Source: an uncultured Halomicronema sp. (lineage in GTDB: Bacteria; Cyanobacteriota; Cyanobacteriia; Phormidesmidales; Phormidesmidaceae). From it: a stretch of 64,000 nucleotides of DNA. The stretch's first letter is position 1; each line of letters opens with the position of its first letter. Shown piece after piece: positions 5,466-14,214 of the stretch. The position numbers were made by a program, and so were the translations under genes. Where the stretch lies: assembly GCA_937899725.1 (NCBI GenBank), contig CALCCA010000088.1:62001-126000 (forward strand), read 5' to 3'. The notes below the pieces were generated by a model, which searched no databases, had not been told where the DNA came from, and saw only the letters and a list, made by a program, of their open reading frames with translations.

Positions 5466-6530
5466 CTATATTGAGGCGGTTGGCTCAGCGGCATCATTAA
5501 CCATCAAGTTGTTGAGCTGCTCACGCAGCATGTCGTTGATCATCGAGCCCGGCGGCCGCTCGTGGGGCCAAGCAAAGGCATGGCGAAACGCCGCCGCTTG
5601 ACAAGCCTGCAATCCTTCAAACCCAATCACATCCTGAGTCAGCAAGTTCTCGTATTCAAAGGGCAGACGGACGTTGTGCAGGCCCGCATTGTCGGTACAG
5701 ATGGCAATATCGACCCCAGCGTCAAAGCAGCGATCAAACACCGGCTTCAGGTCACGAATCTCATCTAGCGTGCCCGTTTGCAAATAAGTGGTTGGACATA
5801 CTTCCAAACACTGTCTCCGGTCAGCCACGGACTTCAACAAATCAGGTCGCTGCAGGGGAATCTGAATGCCGTGGCCAATCCGCATCAGATAGGGCAACAG
5901 CTCGGGGTAGCAGCCATCCCGCGTTTCAAACACGTGCCCGGTCGTGCTAACGCCCAGCTGTCTGGCATAGGCATACAACCCGACAAACTCGTCTAGCCGT
6001 TCGCCATACTGGGCGTCACCGCCCGCCAAATCAATGGCACAGACAAACTCAGGATATTGGGCCGCCAGATCAACGATGGCCCGATTCACCTCGTAGGGCA
6101 ATCGCGAGTGCATGCAGAGAATTTGCCGCGTCACCACCGGATACTCCGTTTGTTGGCTAGCGCGCCCTACTACCTCAACGATCTGGGTCATCTTGTCGAT
6201 GCGATCGCTTTGCGCAAGATATTCTGGCGTTCTTAAGTAAGGCGTATAGCGCAGCTCTAGGTACGCCAGATTCTCAAAGATATAAGCCCCGCGAATCAGG
6301 CGCGACACAAAGTAGGGCAGGGCTTCTTGAGTCTGCACGCTTTCTACCAGGGTGTGCAGTTCTAGATACTCCGCCAAGGTGTTATGAGGTCGGGTGTAGA
6401 AATCTTCAAAGGCAGGATAACCTTCAAAGCGATCGGCCACATCGGAGCGATTGCGTTGAAAATAACGCCACAAAATTCTGGGGACAACAGAACCGCCCAG
6501 GTGGCGGTGCAGCTCAGCATACAAACTCAT
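5466..6530 (-). CDS. Adenosine deaminase family protein
   Basis: 354 residues. The N-terminal AELHRHLGGS carries the HxH metal-ligand pair of the amidohydrolase superfamily; GHVFE near residue 200 supplies the His/Glu pair, and ICTDNAG near 290 the metal-binding Asp. Family members hydrolyse adenosine (or related 6-aminopurines) to inosine and ammonia in purine salvage. It is divergent from purA, which makes AMP from IMP, so both sides of the 6.5-6.9 kb spacer concern adenine nucleotides. Exact substrate cannot be read from sequence. Confidence 0.85.
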   Translation of the reverse strand: MSLYAELHRHLGGSVVPRILWRYFQRNRSDVADRFEGYPAFEDFYTRPHNTLAEYLELHTLVESVQTQEALPYFVSRLIRGAYIFENLAYLELRYTPYLRTPEYLAQSDRIDKMTQIVEVVGRASQQTEYPVVTRQILCMHSRLPYEVNRAIVDLAAQYPEFVCAIDLAGGDAQYGERLDEFVGLYAYARQLGVSTTGHVFETRDGCYPELLPYLMRIGHGIQIPLQRPDLLKSVADRRQCLEVCPTTYLQTGTLDEIRDLKPVFDRCFDAGVDIAICTDNAGLHNVRLPFEYENLLTQDVIGFEGLQACQAAAFRHAFAWPHERPPGSMINDMLREQLNNLMVNDAAEPTASI

Positions 6531-8193
<1,663 letters not shown>

Positions 8194-8243
8194 TTGTCTG
8201 TTTGTTTGCCTGCCCAAATTATTCTGAATTGTCAGTGAGTCCT

Positions 8244-8864
8244 ATGGAACTATCGATTGAATGTAACAAGCGCGACACCGGCATCAACCCCAGAGCCCTG
8301 CGTCGTGATGGCCGCGTGCCCGCCGTCCTCTACGGTCATGATGGCGCCGAGTCCGTCTCGCTGACGGTGGCCCAGCGAGATGCCGAAAAGCTCGTGCGTT
8401 ATGCGTCAGAGAACAATACCCTAATCACGGTCAATGTGCCTGACATGCCCTGGAGCGGTCAGGCCCTACTGCGTGAGGTGCAAACCCACCCATGGAAGGA
8501 CATGCTGTATCACCTCAGCTTTTTCTCGATCGCCAGTCAGTCCAGCGTGGAAGTGGTCGTCCCCCTGCACTATGTCGGCACGGCCAGTGGCGTCAAAGAT
8601 GAAGGCGGCACTTTAGACATCATGGTGTCAGAACTGGCCATTCGCTGTGCCCCCAATGCGATTCCGGAAACGCTAGACGTTGATGTGACAGCGCTCGCCG
8701 TGGGTGAGAACCTCCACATCACCGACCTAAAGCTACCGGCTGGCGTCGAGGCGATCGCCGATACTGACAAAACCCTGGTCAACGTAGCAGCCCCGAGAAC
8801 TGTCGCTGCTGAAGGCAGTGACGACGGTGCGGTGGCGGTGGCAGAAACCGCTTCTGAAGCGTAG
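8244..8864 (+). CDS. rplY: 50S ribosomal protein L25 (CTC/TL5 form)
   Basis: 206 residues from the ATG at 8244; the longer open frame from 8190 overlaps the purA stop and adds non-conserved residues. Residues 1-95 are the L25 5S-rRNA-binding domain (RRDGRVPAVLYGHDG), residues 100-185 the C-terminal beta domain of the CTC/TL5 type, then an Ala/Glu/Val-rich tail. It binds 5S rRNA in the large subunit. Downstream of purA by 50 bases and followed by a strong terminator. Confidence 0.95.
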   Translation: MELSIECNKRDTGINPRALRRDGRVPAVLYGHDGAESVSLTVAQRDAEKLVRYASENNTLITVNVPDMPWSGQALLREVQTHPWKDMLYHLSFFSIASQSSVEVVVPLHYVGTASGVKDEGGTLDIMVSELAIRCAPNAIPETLDVDVTALAVGENLHITDLKLPAGVEAIADTDKTLVNVAAPRTVAAEGSDDGAVAVAETASEA

Positions 8865-8882
8865 ATTACCGTTGATGTCGTG

Positions 8883-8911
8883 AAACCAGGGAAAATTTTC
8901 CCTGGTTTTTT
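8883..8911 (+). terminator. Intrinsic terminator after rplY
   Basis: AAACCAGGGAAAA pairs perfectly with TTTTCCCTGGTTT and is followed by a T-run (TTTTTT in all). It ends the purA-rplY unit 22 bases before the next start codon. Confidence 0.9.
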
Positions 8912-8932
8912 AGTGTCTTTTTACAGGTTGTT

Positions 8933-10465
8933 ATGGTTGATATCTCGCTGCCACCACTGATTCAGCAAATGCTCCAGCCGGAGTTTTATCCCCATCCCGT
9001 GCAAGATTCGATCCAGCTGATTCAGACGCATGGTTCCTACGTCATGCTGACGGGAGACTTTGCCTACAAAGTCAAAAAGCCGGTCGATTTTGGGTTTCTC
9101 AACTACTCCACCCTGGAGCTGCGAAAACACTTCTGTGCGGCAGAACTACAGCTCAACCAGCGCGCCGCCGCGCCCATCTATGTCGCCGCTCTGCCAATTA
9201 GCCAGCAGGGCGATCGCTACGAGCTCGACACCCCCGAAAACGTGGTGGAATACACTGTCAAAATGCGGCAGTTTCCCCAGTCCACGCTGCTGAGTCATCT
9301 CTTTGAACAGGGCGACCTGACAGAAGACCTGCTGCGCCAGCTGGCTGAGGCGATCGCGGCCTTTCACCTGCAGGCGGCAACCAACGACTACATCCAGACC
9401 TTTGGCACGGTCGAGAAGATTCGCCAGTCGATCGACGAAAATTACGACCAGACTGTGGGCTTTATCGGCGGGCCGCAAACCCAGCAGCAGTTTGACGAGA
9501 CCAAAGCCTACACCGACCAGTTTTTTGCCACCCAACAGGAGCTGCTACAGCAGCGCGTTGACCAGGGCAAAATCCGAGCTTGCCACGGCGACCTGCATCT
9601 CAACAACATCTGCTACTGGCAAGACGAGCTGCTGTTGTTTGACTGCATCGAGTTCAACGAGCCGTTTCGCTTCGTTGACGTGATGTTCGACATCGCCTAC
9701 ATCATCATGGATCTCACCGTGCAAGGGCGAGCCGACTTGGCCGCCTCGTTTCTCAGCCACTATGTTGAGCACACAGGCGATTGGGCCGGCTTACAGGTAC
9801 TGCCTCTCTACGTCAGTCGGCAGTCCTATGTCAGAGCCAAAGTGATCTCCTTTTTATTGGGCGATCCCACCGTTGACGACGCGGCGAAGCAAGCCGCCGC
9901 CGACAAAGCGGCGAAATATTACACGCTGGCGTGGTCTTACATTCAGCCCCAGTCAGGCCAACTTTTTGCCATGGCAGGACTATCTGGGGCCGGTAAAAGC
10001 ACCGTAGCTCAAGAACTGGCGCGGCGGCTGCCTGGCGTCTATGTGCGCTCGGATGCGGTGCGCAAGCACTTAGCGGGAATGCCCATACAGCAGCGGGGGG
10101 CCGATAGCCTATACACTCCAGAAATGACGCAAAAGACCTACGAGCGCTTGGTACAGTTAGGCAGCGAGCTGGCTAGCCAAGGTTACAGCATCATTTTGGA
10201 TGCAAAGTTTGATCGGGTTGCAACCCGACAGCTGGCGATCGCCCAGGCAGCAGCCCACCAGCTGCCGCTGATCATTGTGCACTGTGAGGCCCCGCTCGCA
10301 ACGCTTCAACAACGGGTCAAAGAACGGTCGGGCGACATTGCCGATGCTACTTTGGCCATTTTAGAAAAGCAGCATCTAGAGCCCTTTACTTCCGCCGAGC
10401 AACCCTCTGTCACGACGATTGATACGACCCAACCACTATCTCCTCAATTGGCGACTATAGTGTAA
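8933..10465 (+). CDS. Fused aminoglycoside-phosphotransferase-like / P-loop kinase protein
   Basis: 510 residues in two parts. Residues about 30-300 resemble the APH/choline kinase fold: ACHGDLHLNNICY near 217 has the catalytic loop (HGDLHxxN) and LLFDCIEF near 235 the metal-binding Asp. Residues about 345-500 form a small P-loop kinase of the gluconate/chloramphenicol kinase type, with AGLSGAGKST (about 349-357) and a SDAVRKHLAG lid region. This two-domain arrangement is found in many bacteria, but its substrate is unknown. The ATG at 8933 sits just after the rplY terminator, so it needs its own promoter or read-through. Confidence 0.85.
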   Translation: MVDISLPPLIQQMLQPEFYPHPVQDSIQLIQTHGSYVMLTGDFAYKVKKPVDFGFLNYSTLELRKHFCAAELQLNQRAAAPIYVAALPISQQGDRYELDTPENVVEYTVKMRQFPQSTLLSHLFEQGDLTEDLLRQLAEAIAAFHLQAATNDYIQTFGTVEKIRQSIDENYDQTVGFIGGPQTQQQFDETKAYTDQFFATQQELLQQRVDQGKIRACHGDLHLNNICYWQDELLLFDCIEFNEPFRFVDVMFDIAYIIMDLTVQGRADLAASFLSHYVEHTGDWAGLQVLPLYVSRQSYVRAKVISFLLGDPTVDDAAKQAAADKAAKYYTLAWSYIQPQSGQLFAMAGLSGAGKSTVAQELARRLPGVYVRSDAVRKHLAGMPIQQRGADSLYTPEMTQKTYERLVQLGSELASQGYSIILDAKFDRVATRQLAIAQAAAHQLPLIIVHCEAPLATLQQRVKERSGDIADATLAILEKQHLEPFTSAEQPSVTTIDTTQPLSPQLATIV

Positions 10466-10550
10466 GCGAGCAAGGCTGTCACAAGTCCAAGTGGAGCAGT
10501 GGCAGCCCAACCTATCCTCAACGTTGGGGGGATGATCCCCGCTATCCATC

Positions 10551-10853
10551 GTGACTGACAAGATTTTTCCCGTTGCGCTGCGGCTGTGGCTATTTTTTTT
10601 GCTGACGTTTTTGGTGCTGGGCTACGAGATTGGCCCAAGCATTATTTTTGGGGCGATCGCCGGGTTTGCGGGCGGTACCCTGGCCGCTTGGTGGCAAACT
10701 CCGGGTGGTAAACCGAAGGCAGTAGACGCCGGGCCGAACGCCCTTGGCAAGCTGGGAGAACGGTTTAAACCACGCCAGGTGCAAAATCGCTTACCCTTCC
10801 TCAAATTGTTCACCCGCCGCGATCGCCGCCATCCCGGCTCCCGTCGTTTGTAA
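10551..10853 (+). CDS. Small membrane protein, unknown
   Basis: 100 residues from a GTG start. Two hydrophobic segments (about residues 9-27 and 30-48, the second with a Gly/Ala-rich SIIFGAIAGFAGGTLAAWW), then a basic tail of about 50 residues rich in Arg and Lys. I do not recognise a named family. It is 9 bases upstream of the GNAT gene on the same strand, so the two are probably co-transcribed. No strong ribosome-binding site is seen. Confidence 0.6.
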   Translation: MTDKIFPVALRLWLFFLLTFLVLGYEIGPSIIFGAIAGFAGGTLAAWWQTPGGKPKAVDAGPNALGKLGERFKPRQVQNRLPFLKLFTRRDRRHPGSRRL

Positions 10854-10862
10854 AAGACTGTT

Positions 10863-11363
10863 ATGTCCTTCGTCATTCGAGAAATTCAACCTGAGGACAA
10901 CCCGCAGATTGCGGCCATCATTCGTCAGGTACTCACCGAGTTTGGTGCCAATCGCCCTGGTTTTGCCTGGGCAGATCCAGAACTTGATCAGCTCTCCCAA
11001 GCCTACCAGGACAGCGAGGGCAGTTACTACGTGGTCACTGCCGCAGACCAGATCATTGGCGGCGGGGGTATTGCACCATTTCCCTGCGACTTTCCCGATA
11101 TCTGTGAACTGCAAAAGATGTATCTTGTGCCCGCTTATCGCGGCCAAGGCATCGGCCAAGCCCTGATGGAAAAATTGCTCACAATGGCTCAAGGGCAGGG
11201 TTATCAAGGCTGCTATTTAGAGACCTTTGGCACCATGGCAGCCGCGATTCATCTCTACCAAAAATTTGGCTTCCACCCCGTGGAGCATCCCATTGGCAAC
11301 TCGGGTCACCGCAGTTGCAACCTATTTTTCATGCGACACTTTGAATCACCAGAGGTGAGTTGA
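10863..11363 (+). CDS. GNAT family N-acetyltransferase
   Basis: 166 residues. Motif A with the acetyl-CoA pyrophosphate loop is YLVPAYRGQGIGQALM (about residues 91-106), followed by motif B LYQKFGFHPVE near 139. Members transfer acetyl from acetyl-CoA to amines or peptides; the acceptor cannot be predicted. Probably co-transcribed with the small membrane protein 9 bases upstream. This is the last gene before the AT-rich island. Confidence 0.88.
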   Translation: MSFVIREIQPEDNPQIAAIIRQVLTEFGANRPGFAWADPELDQLSQAYQDSEGSYYVVTAADQIIGGGGIAPFPCDFPDICELQKMYLVPAYRGQGIGQALMEKLLTMAQGQGYQGCYLETFGTMAAAIHLYQKFGFHPVEHPIGNSGHRSCNLFFMRHFESPEVS

Positions 11364-11450
11364 CGACCCAGCGAACGCCGAGGCTGTTGACCTAGCGTCA
11401 GAGCCTCTAACGTCTCCACAATTGTAGAATGCTGCTCATGCCAAACCAGC

Positions 11451-11693
11451 TCATACGCGAGCTAGGGTCACCTGTTCAGGCTGGTCTTGATATTTACCGC
11501 GACGGGTTTCGTAGCTAACTTCACACTGCTCACCTTCAAAAAAGAGGAGCTGCACAACGCCTTCGTTTGCATAAATGCGGCAGTCGGCACTCGATGAGTT
11601 AGAGAACTCTAGCGTCAGATGACCACGCCAACTCGCTTCGGTAGGCATCACGTTGGCGATGATGTCGACCGAAGCGGGTTGGTTTACCGACAA
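11451..11693 (-). pseudogene. Truncated dCTP deaminase (C-terminal remnant)
   Basis: The last 70 codons (from Ile-Ile-Ala-Asn) align without gaps to residues 124-193 of the intact Dcd encoded at 12754-13335; by my count 52 of 70 residues are identical. The N-terminal two thirds, with the catalytic GKSTxAR segment, is missing; the ten residues before the homology are unrelated. Nucleotide divergence is large, with more G/C-rich codons than the intact copy, so this looks like the stump of the resident gene, not a recent duplicate. Probably not functional. Confidence 0.8.
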
Positions 11694-11968
11694 TGATGTC
11701 TATGACATGAGCGAGAAAACCTTACTCACAAACAACGAAAGATCGTGGAAGTCAGATGTGCCTTGAAAAAGTTCTCAGAACACAGATCATCTAAAAACTT
11801 GAGTACAATTCAGAAAAATTGTATCAAGGTAGAACAAGAGACAGCCGTAGAGAGTAAGAGCTAAAGAATGCCCATTCTTTAGGATCAGGGTCAATCTTAG
11901 CTTTCGAAGTTTCAATTCACGAAATCGTCTTTAGCATAGTAGTACTTGTTTTTTTCTCATGAATCATT

Positions 11969-12724
11969 ATGACAGTCATTCCATTTGTGATAGACGGTAA
12001 TAATAAGACGGTCGTAGAAACCAAAGAAGATTTCGATACAGCAGGTGGACTGTATGGAAATGTAATCCTCATCAGAAACATCGACAGGAATCAGGTTGAT
12101 AAGGCAAAGATTACTGAAGATAAATCTAGCAATGTCAGCTATGACTTAAGAGTTGGCAACGAATACCGAGATCATAGAGATCTGGGAAAGACTGATTTGC
12201 CAGATGGCGGCATGATACATCTTCCTCCAGGGACAGCCGTGATCATAGAAACTTATGAGGAAGTACACTTTCCCAGATCTCGTTTCGGCCATATTGTGCC
12301 TAAAGTTAAACTTTTAATGGATGGCATTTCCAATACTTCTTCGAAGATAGATCCTGGCTTTGATGGGAAGCTGTTGATCACAGTTTTTAATCTAGGCAAC
12401 AAAAAAATAACTTTGAAGAAGCATGATAAGTTTTGCACTCTATACACTTTGAATGTTCAAGAAGAAGGATTGATTTCAAGAGACAAAGAAAGACCAAGAA
12501 TGCCTGGGTCACAAGGGTCACGATTTCTCACGGGTTTAAGAAGTTATGTGGAAAAGAATCAAGCTCTTCTTTCAGGAATAAACATCTTCGCCACAATCAT
12601 CCTTGCATTTGCAACAACAGCATTGTTAGTTATACAAATCAGACAAGAAACAAATTCTGATAATTCTAGGGGTGAAACCAAACCACTGTCTCTGAAATCA
12701 GAAGCTTCTTCATATTATTTCTAG
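11969..12724 (+). CDS. Membrane-anchored dCTP deaminase/dUTPase-fold protein
   Basis: 251 residues. Residues about 28-165 resemble the trimeric dUTPase/dCTP deaminase fold: VSYDLRVGNEYR (57-67), LPPGTAVIIETYEEVHFP (85-102) and KIDPGFDGKLLITVFN (126-141). The Dcd catalytic GKSxxAR segment is replaced by PKVKLLMDG, and the Glu expected after the DPGFxG block is Thr, so deaminase activity is unlikely. A membrane helix at about 203-224 is followed by a 27-residue tail. The gene is AT-rich (20 of 60 bases G/C at 12301-12360), lies between two dcd copies, and ends 29 bases from the end of the convergent intact dcd. Function unknown; nucleotide sensing is a guess. Confidence 0.65.
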   Translation: MTVIPFVIDGNNKTVVETKEDFDTAGGLYGNVILIRNIDRNQVDKAKITEDKSSNVSYDLRVGNEYRDHRDLGKTDLPDGGMIHLPPGTAVIIETYEEVHFPRSRFGHIVPKVKLLMDGISNTSSKIDPGFDGKLLITVFNLGNKKITLKKHDKFCTLYTLNVQEEGLISRDKERPRMPGSQGSRFLTGLRSYVEKNQALLSGINIFATIILAFATTALLVIQIRQETNSDNSRGETKPLSLKSEASSYYF

Positions 12725-12753
12725 TTAGCTTTTTTAGAGTGGTTAGAGACCAT

Positions 12754-13335
12754 CTACACCCTAGCAAGGGTTACAGCTTGAGGTTGATTCTGGTACTTGC
12801 CGAATCGATCTGCGTAAGTTGTTTGGCAAGGCTCACCCTCTAAGAAAAGCAACTGAAGCACTCCTTCATTTGCATAAATTCTGCAATCAGCGCTTGATGC
12901 ATTACTGAACTCAAGGGTAAGGTAGCCTTCCCAAGAAGCCTCAGCCGGAGTGATGTTCGCAATAATTCCACAGCGTGCCATTGTAGATTTCCCAATGCAC
13001 AGAACCGTAATATTGGAGGGTATTTTTAATCTCTCTAGAGAAACACCAAGTGCATAAGAATTAGCCGGAATAATAAAAAAAGAGCCATCTTCATCTTCCT
13101 GCAAAGGCACCGCCTCCAAGTTGTCAGAATTAAATCTCTTGGGATTTACAACCGTTCCAGGGATGTGTTTAAAGACTCTGAAATCTGCTGGTGCAAGCCT
13201 CAAGTCATATCCATAGCTTGACAAGCCATAGCTTATAACTTTTCTGTCTTCAACGTGTCGAACTAATGTACTCTCAAACGGCTCGATCATGCCGTTATGG
13301 GCCTGTTCAATAATCCATTTATCATTTTGAAGCAT
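12754..13335 (-). CDS. dcd: dCTP deaminase, intact divergent copy
   Basis: 193 residues, the length of E. coli Dcd. It converts dCTP to dUTP for dTMP synthesis. Visible: SSYGYDLRLAP (39-49), the catalytic GKSTMAR (115-121, Ser and Arg) and Glu142 in TLEFSN. ATG at 13335. The gene is AT-rich and free of HIP1 sites, unlike most of the window, and a 3' remnant of another dcd lies about 1.1 kb away on the same strand, which points to replacement of the resident gene by transfer. Convergent with the membrane-anchored relative. Confidence 0.93.
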   Translation of the reverse strand: MLQNDKWIIEQAHNGMIEPFESTLVRHVEDRKVISYGLSSYGYDLRLAPADFRVFKHIPGTVVNPKRFNSDNLEAVPLQEDEDGSFFIIPANSYALGVSLERLKIPSNITVLCIGKSTMARCGIIANITPAEASWEGYLTLEFSNASSADCRIYANEGVLQLLFLEGEPCQTTYADRFGKYQNQPQAVTLARV

Positions 13336-13650
13336 TGATTATGAATCCTCAAAGAAGTATTTTGCTAAGTCATAAGACTATATCAACTCTTGAATCTAAA
13401 AAGTGCTGAGTGAGTCTTGCTTCTTATTAAAAACTTTTGGGAAAGTCATTATGATGTAACAAAGCTTCTGGTTAACTACGTTTTCAATTCATCCTCGAAA
13501 TTTCAGATGGATATTTCTATGGATTTTCTTAAGATATGCACTGTGGTTCTCCCTGGATTCGTATGAACTTGTGCTGAACTGAAACGTAAAATTCAGGTCT
13601 TACCCTTTATCTAGCCCTGTTTCATACTAAGCTAAAGAGCTTGCACTGTT
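13336..13650. other. AT-rich spacer at the right edge of the dcd island
   Basis: 315 bases without a gene; 19 of 60 bases are G/C at 13381-13440, against 35 of 60 at 13681-13740. It holds the upstream region of dcd; I see no direct repeat, tRNA or integrase marking a boundary. Confidence 0.55.
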
Positions 13651-14214
13651 TTAAGGCATGAAATGACGGCGAAATTCGGTGACCTGATCGGCGATCGCCA
13701 GCAATGACGCAGGCATCTCTGGCCCCGTCATAATCACATCGACCTGGGAGGGGCGCTGCTGCAGAAACGTCAGCACATCCGCCTCTGCAATCAGGCCAAA
13801 CCGAATCGCTAAACTCAACTCATCCAACACCACTAAGGAGTAGCGGCCCTGCCGGGCCATCGTTTCAGCGTGTTGCCACAGGAGAGCGATCGCAGCGCGT
13901 TCGCCCTCGGTGGTCTCATCAGACGCGATGGCCCGCTGAATATCGGGACGCATCCATTCCAGCCCTTGGCCAAACTGCATCGACTGGTCTACCCCCTGAC
14001 GAATCCCCCCTTTGAGAAACTGGGCAATCAAAACAGCGTGACCTTGACCCGCGACTCGCATGGCTTGCACCATGACATTCGTAAAAAAGCTGCGGTGAGG
14101 TGAGGTGAAAACTTGTACCGTACCTTCGACAGCATGCAGCCAAGGATGTGCCTTGGCACGAGCGGCAGGATCAGGAGCGGAAAGGGGTAGCGAAGCCCGG
14201 AGCTGTGAAACCAT
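13651..14214 (-). CDS. CobA/CobO-like P-loop protein with degenerate Walker A
   Basis: 187 residues. Overall resembles cob(I)yrinic acid a,c-diamide adenosyltransferase (CobO/BtuR): VQVFT at 33-37, AGQGHAVLIAQFLKGG at 55-70, VVLDELSLAI (Walker B region) at 128-137. But the nucleotide loop GNGKGKTT of true enzymes is here SPHRSFFTN (38-46), with no Gly-Lys-Thr. It is therefore probably not an ATP-dependent adenosyltransferase of the standard kind. I believe similar variants occur in other cyanobacteria, where a separate role is likely. Isolated on the minus strand beside the AT-rich island. Confidence 0.7.
   Translation of the reverse strand: MVSQLRASLPLSAPDPAARAKAHPWLHAVEGTVQVFTSPHRSFFTNVMVQAMRVAGQGHAVLIAQFLKGGIRQGVDQSMQFGQGLEWMRPDIQRAIASDETTEGERAAIALLWQHAETMARQGRYSLVVLDELSLAIRFGLIAEADVLTFLQQRPSQVDVIMTGPEMPASLLAIADQVTEFRRHFMP

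Follow-up and report, generated by a model that had tools for sequence, protein, structure and literature searches.

The locus studied here raises the question of what a protein built like a dUTPase or a dCTP deaminase (DCD), both of them textbook enzymes, might do when it lacks catalytic residues, ends in a membrane helix and is encoded between the remnant of one dcd gene and a complete copy of another. The gene lies within a stretch of 64,000 nucleotides, hereafter the window, from a 7 Mb cyanobacterial genome (G000, contig C88). Its position between a dcd remnant and a foreign dcd, as an earlier note on this DNA had described it, was confirmed by the boundaries collected in Table 1.

Table 1. 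Features of the locus (positions in the window).
Feature	Position	Strand	Remarks
3′ remnant of the resident (native) dcd	11451..11664	-	Native dcd homology
Foreign low-GC segment with two-gene module	11665..13650	.	Right end placed approximately, in the spacer between dcd and cobO
Membrane-tethered protein of predicted DCD/dUTPase fold, probably catalytically dead	11969..12724	+	ATG start, 251 aa
Predicted DCD/dUTPase-fold core, residues 33–162	12065..12454	+	AlphaFold2, and Foldseek to dUTPases/DCDs
Conserved SYDLRVG motif, residues 57–63	12137..12157	+	Y58, D59 and G63 invariant in the 37-member alignment
Degenerate motif II PKVKLLM, residues 111–117	12299..12319	+	GKSTMAR in dcd
Conserved hairpin ISNTSSKIDPG, residues 120–130	12326..12358	+	D128 at the position of the dUTPase catalytic base
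C-terminal transmembrane segment, about residues 203–225	12575..12643	+	Hydropathy and AlphaFold2 helix
Intact foreign dcd of the module	12754..13335	-	Convergent with the membrane-protein gene, stops 29 bp apart
cobO-type corrinoid adenosyltransferase gene, native flank	13651..14214	-	PF02572

Predicted fold and membrane helix

The window protein scored above the cut-offs of two Pfam families, DCD (PF22769, 45.6 bits against a cut-off of 27, residues 38–158) and, more weakly, dUTPase (PF00692, 25 bits against 22), and reached 44.8 bits with the dCTP deaminase equivalog TIGR02274, below the curated cut-off of 92.8. The fold signature pointed out in the earlier note is present, with SYDLRVG at residues 57–63 and IDPGFDG from residue 127. 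The AlphaFold2 (AF2) model, built on a 37-member family alignment, showed a mean pLDDT of 84.9, mostly above 90 in the core, and its best PDB match with Foldseek was the dUTPase of Thermococcus pacificus (8y1w, E 2e-11, TM-score 0.76 by target length), followed by dUTPase P45 and then by bifunctional DCD:DUT enzymes and the E. coli DCD. The dUTPase/dCTP deaminase fold is, in agreement with the note, confidently predicted. Chance similarity or an annotation artefact is ruled out by the profile scores, the structure and the 37 to 55 conserved relatives, and a decaying pseudogene by the purifying selection acting on the membrane-protein gene (dN/dS 0.08–0.43 in nine close pairs). A scan for promoters and terminators at the locus gave a result at chance level.

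The C-terminal membrane helix, also claimed in the note, was recovered both as a hydropathy maximum of 2.38 at residues 206–224 and as a long AF2 helix (198–232), and a membrane helix is present in nearly all members of the family. In Nostoc CHAB 5836 (L139:7007-7804), the DCD-like domain is fused in frame to a deoxyribosyltransferase-like (NDT) domain, with the membrane part lost.

Active-site residues

Where the intact dcd next to it has GKSTMAR, the window protein reads PKVKLLM, and a Thr stands in place of the catalytic Glu (LTLEF). Among the 55 chromosomal members of the family compared, none had the catalytic Ser or Arg of the GKSxxAR motif or the Glu of LEF, whereas all three were intact in the 7 control DCDs aligned. 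The plasmid relatives lacked the Arg and the Glu in 14 of 14 cases, a single one showing a Ser at the aligned column. The Asp of IDPG (D128), which occupies the position of the catalytic base in dUTPases (motif III), is kept in 50 of the 55 chromosomal members and in the 14 from plasmids, and Y58, D59, G63, E97, D128, P129, N141, and C156 are invariant across the 37-member alignment.

The earlier note had considered the protein catalytically dead. Judging from these residues, the loss of deamination chemistry is well supported; the loss of dUTP hydrolysis, with the Asp of IDPG still in place, is only inferred from the lost phosphate-binding motif II and the lack of a motif V. By the residues tested, the window protein would belong neither to the dCTP deaminases nor to the dUTPases. 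With the invariant residues and the Asp kept, the sugar/base side of the site seems to be retained, whereas the phosphate-binding motif is absent.

Acquisition of the two-gene module

A genome of the same genus with an intact native dcd (G002) matches positions 6001–11664 of the window at 92.9% DNA identity, and this match ends inside dcd. The listed ORF of the remnant starts at 11693 (TTG), but the true boundary is where native dcd homology stops, at about 11664. Homology to other native genomes of the genus restarts at 13651, in cobO, a gene that adjoins dcd in most relatives. Between about 11700 and 13650, the GC content is 35–45%, versus 50–58% on either side. The dcd of the module (113.9 bits with TIGR02274, cut-off 92.8) shares 84–91% identity with other module dcds and 66–70% with native dcds of the family, and in the dcd tree it clades with those of Nodosilinea, Tildeniella, and Westiellopsis/Fischerella, all of them with the same convergent membrane-protein partner, apart from the native family dcds. 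Together, these data indicate that the 5′ part of the resident dcd gave way to a segment of about 2 kb carrying a complete foreign dcd and the membrane gene, the 3′ end being left in place. A plain tandem duplication as the origin of remnant and foreign dcd was ruled out by the tree and the breakpoints.

The same three-part arrangement, with different breakpoints, was found in two Nodosilinea-type genomes, Nodosilinea nodulosa PCC 7104 (G046) and Leptolyngbya ULC186bin1 (G054). The resident dcd was displaced leaving a 3′ remnant in three genomes, native sequence being retained from about nt 317 (G046), nt 299 (G054), and nt 360–385 (window). Oscillatoria CS-180 (G003) carries the dcd and membrane-gene pair, and a remnant was not found there. 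The membrane-protein gene and dcd travel together, the membrane protein evolving faster (43–58% identity) than its dcd partner. The genes around the window copy are housekeeping genes, and no credible defence gene was detected at up to 5 kb from it.

In Westiellopsis and Fischerella (L145:6893-8157 and L146:6893-8157), a second, catalytically intact DCD-like gene follows the membrane gene, with a 4-bp overlap, and precedes the module dcd.

Distribution and gene neighbours in cyanobacteria

The family shows a patchy occurrence, being present in 21 to 30 of 390 cyanobacterial genomes, and a GTDB-wide scan revealed further members, among them one each from Acidobacteria, Alphaproteobacteria, and Bacillota and two from Bathyarchaeota. 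None of the family searches made use of gene neighbourhood. A dcd, dut, thyA, dCMP deaminase, or NDT-like gene lies at most 3 kb away in 47 of the 49 cyanobacterial loci, one of the 49 being binned as Chloroflexaceae. In type A loci, that of the window among them, cobO and dcd are accompanied by the membrane gene, convergent or just downstream. Types B and D are same-strand clusters of thyA(DUF4346), dCMP deaminase, the membrane gene, and NDT; type C consists of the membrane gene and dut, and in type E a helical gene of 170–200 aa precedes the membrane gene. 

This helical gene possibly encodes a partner subunit, and it occurs both in cyanobacteria and on plasmids (L015:8400-9008, L100:8584-9237, L198:5474-5998, L200:5493-5996, L203:5414-5995, and L204:5407-5994). 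Its product had no Pfam match in the two proteins tested; a MazG-like nature would be a guess.

The choice of partner enzyme follows function, not homology. In cyanobacterial genomes, dcd and the zinc dCMP deaminase hardly ever occur together (49 of the 51 with this dCMP deaminase gave no dcd match), and the partner tracks the route of the host: dcd in the dcd-users, dCMP deaminase/thyA in genomes without dcd. Of 271 genomes, four carried the NDT-like gene, each time next to the family gene; these were the only four of the sample with a type B or D member, and none of the other 267 had it. In an Acidobacteriaceae genome, the nearest neighbour of the family gene is a double-domain DCD gene, and in Nostocaceae the family gene adjoins what looks, in the tree, like the lineage's own dcd. 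By the earlier note, homologues scattered away from dcd and defence genes would have spoken against its reading. They are not scattered, and the association extends to other genes of pyrimidine deoxynucleotides; as for defence genes, these lie beside relatives on plasmids (see below) and are missing around the window copy.

In the window's own genome, PF00692 matched only at the window gene, and 42 of the 64 genomes of its taxonomic family, about two thirds, gave no dUTPase-family match at all. The idea that window-type genes act as general suppliers of dUTPase was rejected, as most of the family genomes have neither a canonical dut nor this gene.

Relatives on plasmids and viral contigs

Relatives encoded on plasmids carry C-terminal membrane helices too. 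A Peribacillus plasmid shows the order SIR2 (PADLOC PDC-S25), family gene, dut, and on a Priestia plasmid the family gene directly precedes dut. On a plasmid of Rhizobium beringeri the family gene comes after GajA-GajB (Gabija), and on one of Sinorhizobium meliloti after a patatin/cyclase CBASS pair; in both, MazG and an FMN-oxidoreductase-like gene come next. In addition, alphaproteobacterial plasmids have a cassette that includes, in varying combination, HTH, ImmA/IrrE and C1 peptidases, uracil-DNA glycosylase (UDG), MazG_C, a 5-hmdU-kinase (HMUDK) helical domain, and thymidylate synthase (TS), one copy of which, in Bradyrhizobium, is near Shedu. Cyanobacterial type E groups in the tree with members from this cassette (100*), the type A of the window being a separate subfamily, and a single origin of all subfamilies was neither rejected nor demonstrated (p-AU 0.45). 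The copies in defence islands belong mostly to subfamilies other than the window's, and so function may have diverged.

A cassette of the membrane-anchored DCD gene (DCD-TM), with or without MazG, and the FMN-oxidoreductase-like gene recurs on plasmids of rhizobia and Priestia (L195:5935-8025, L196:5953-7812, and L199:5935-8192), two of the rhizobial copies adjoining Gabija or CBASS.

An IMG/VR contig (L158:1-7747) carries an operon of hsdS, hsdM, FAD oxidoreductase, HD phosphohydrolase, methyltransferase, and a fusion of NMP kinase with DCD-TM, a type I restriction-modification operon that is a candidate defence operon. A phage-borne module was rejected, since the phage collection gave only remote dUTPase/DCD matches and IMG/VR two remote ones.

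Comparison with known systems

The window protein resembles the archaeal-type trimeric dUTPases (8y1w; P45, 9ln0/9ln3) in fold, in the YDLRVG and DPG motifs, and in hairpin length, but it lacks the Ser/Arg of motif II and bears a C-terminal membrane helix. With the bifunctional DCD:DUT (M. tuberculosis 2qlp, B. halodurans 4xjc, and M. jannaschii 1pkj) and the E. coli DCD it shares the fold and the core strands; in contrast to them, none of the 55 family members compared has the catalytic Ser or Arg, or the Glu that is E138 in E. coli DCD, and a membrane tail is present. Nucleotide depletion by AvcID and dCTP deaminases (PMC10511110) likewise involves the step from dC to dU nucleotides, but those are active deaminases, whereas the window protein has no deaminase residues and is membrane-anchored. 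Cam1, a CARF-transmembrane effector of type III CRISPR that has cA4 as ligand and causes membrane depolarization (PMC10808066), has the same molecule plan, a soluble domain of nucleotide-binding type plus a membrane helix. The likeness is one of analogy only, as the folds are unrelated, that of the window protein being of the dUTPase/DCD type with no CARF domain.

None of the PADLOC 2.0 models, AvcID-type included, matched the window protein, with only marginal matches for two relatives, and no description of the family was found in the open-access literature searched. To this extent the system is undescribed, as the earlier note had put it. The word needs tempering because the main text of the DefensePredictor study (PMC13092281) already names dUTPase, together with MazG and MazG-C, among defence domains that are predicted but unvalidated, and gives validation for systems with thymidylate synthase or 5-hmdU kinase. 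The plasmid relatives sit in cassettes of just these domains, which brings those cassettes close to a known idea. A membrane-tethered dead dUTPase is absent from the main text searched, and the window copy has no such cassette.

Possible functions

These sequences are most naturally read as encoding a sensor or regulator of pyrimidine deoxynucleotides. By analogy with the plan of Cam1, an apparently inactive dUTPase-fold domain with a membrane tail and a usual neighbour acting on dC/dU nucleotides suggests a nucleotide-responsive membrane protein. In the explanation that we prefer, with a probability of roughly 0.45, a membrane protein sensing pyrimidine dNTPs is paired with an enzyme of dC/dU nucleotides and probably guards the nucleotide pool against phages. 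The family would be one of pseudoenzymes, in which a DCD/dUTPase-fold domain without deamination chemistry has kept the pyrimidine-side hairpin, with one or two helices at the C-terminus as its membrane anchor. It would work with the enzyme encoded alongside, here the foreign dcd that came with it in replacement of the resident one, and elsewhere the product of dut, dCMP deaminase/thyA, MazG, or a NUDIX-like gene. Such a domain, which like its relatives is probably trimeric, would sense how much of some pyrimidine deoxynucleotide in the dC-to-dU-to-dT branch is present; a phage that takes over or alters the pool would shift its occupancy, the shift may then be signalled to the membrane helix, and the response of the helix could compromise the membrane or halt growth.

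In favour of such a guard are a predicted fold with lost residues, the membrane helix, the purifying selection, and the joint movement of the pair, all of them read from sequence data, as are the linkage in 47 of 49 loci, the partner that follows function, and the NDT-like gene (4/4 vs. 0/267). The patchy occurrence, the non-cyanobacterial neighbourhoods with SIR2, GajAB, CBASS, Shedu, and TS/HMUDK/MazG_C/UDG/ImmA-IrrE, and the fusion in the restriction-modification operon of a viral contig point in the same direction. On the other hand, the window copy has no credible defence gene within 5 kb, the family is matched by none of the PADLOC models, most of the copies in defence islands come from other subfamilies, and the cyanobacterial tie to housekeeping genes of the dTTP pathway suits a metabolic role equally. 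It is a more doubtful proposal that the family forms a new immune sensor-effector class, in which an inactive dUTPase-fold trimer would monitor the host pyrimidine deoxynucleotide pool by way of the dcd, dut, or dCMP deaminase that accompanies it and gate the membrane helices upon phage disturbance, as a module recurring with non-homologous partners from cyanobacteria to rhizobial plasmids and archaea.

The main alternative, in our view somewhat less likely than the guard, is a housekeeping regulator or scaffold with no phage role, which would bind dTTP/dUTP or co-assemble with the neighbouring DCD, DUT, dCMP deaminase, or ThyA to hold or tune dUMP/dTTP synthesis at the membrane. We rate it this high because housekeeping genes surround the cyanobacterial copies, that of the window among them. 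It is also consistent with the way these copies keep strictly to dcd, dut, thyA, and dCMP deaminase, in many cases as compact clusters on one strand, with the switch of partner with the host's route to dUMP, and with the inhibition of bifunctional DCD:DUT by dTTP (PMC5519681). Such a regulator accounts less well for the patchiness within cyanobacteria, the horizontal movement with displacement of alleles, and the defence systems next to plasmid copies of other subfamilies.

It is rather improbable that the protein has remained enzymatically active, as a divergent dUTPase of the membrane or another pyrimidine hydrolase, with Asp128 working in a rebuilt site, and that it could supply the dUTPase activity of this genome. 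The Asp kept at the base position, the lone PF00692 match in the genome, and archaeal dUTPases as the closest solved structures fit this possibility, but the phosphate-binding Ser/Arg of motif II is lost throughout the chromosomal family, the C-terminus is a membrane tail with no glycine-rich arm of motif V, several relatives adjoin a real dut, and about two thirds of the genomes of the taxonomic family have neither a dut match nor this gene. Least probable is a passenger or selfish poison-antidote pair, with a membrane protein that either poisons the cell or inhibits the resident DCD, and a foreign dcd as the tolerated version, spreading by replacement of resident dcd: an intact foreign dcd beside a broken resident one in three genomes and the co-transfer of the pair would agree with it, but the Nostocaceae gene adjoins an apparently own-lineage dcd, and types B to D pair with other enzymes.

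The unexpected aspect is the existence of a widespread membrane-tethered version of these enzymes that has apparently lost its chemistry, is maintained by selection and is transferred along with an active enzyme. If it does guard the pool against phages, it would represent a class of immunity that responds to the state of metabolism and not to a molecule of the phage, and the swap of a housekeeping gene for a foreign copy in some cyanobacteria would find an explanation. As a regulator, it would bring to light a control of dTTP synthesis at the cyanobacterial membrane. Under either reading, the unit, of only two genes, is small and lends itself to direct tests.

Inteins in dcd

Three genomes of the family carry a mini-intein in dcd, between GKSTYAR and CGII (L115:4139-5473, strand +; L116:7775-9064, strand -; and L117:1436-2662, strand -). 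A different intein, of the LAGLIDADG type, interrupts the dcd of another genome (G146) between GK and STYAR (L104:9307-11001, strand -), both insertion sites being at the catalytic motif.
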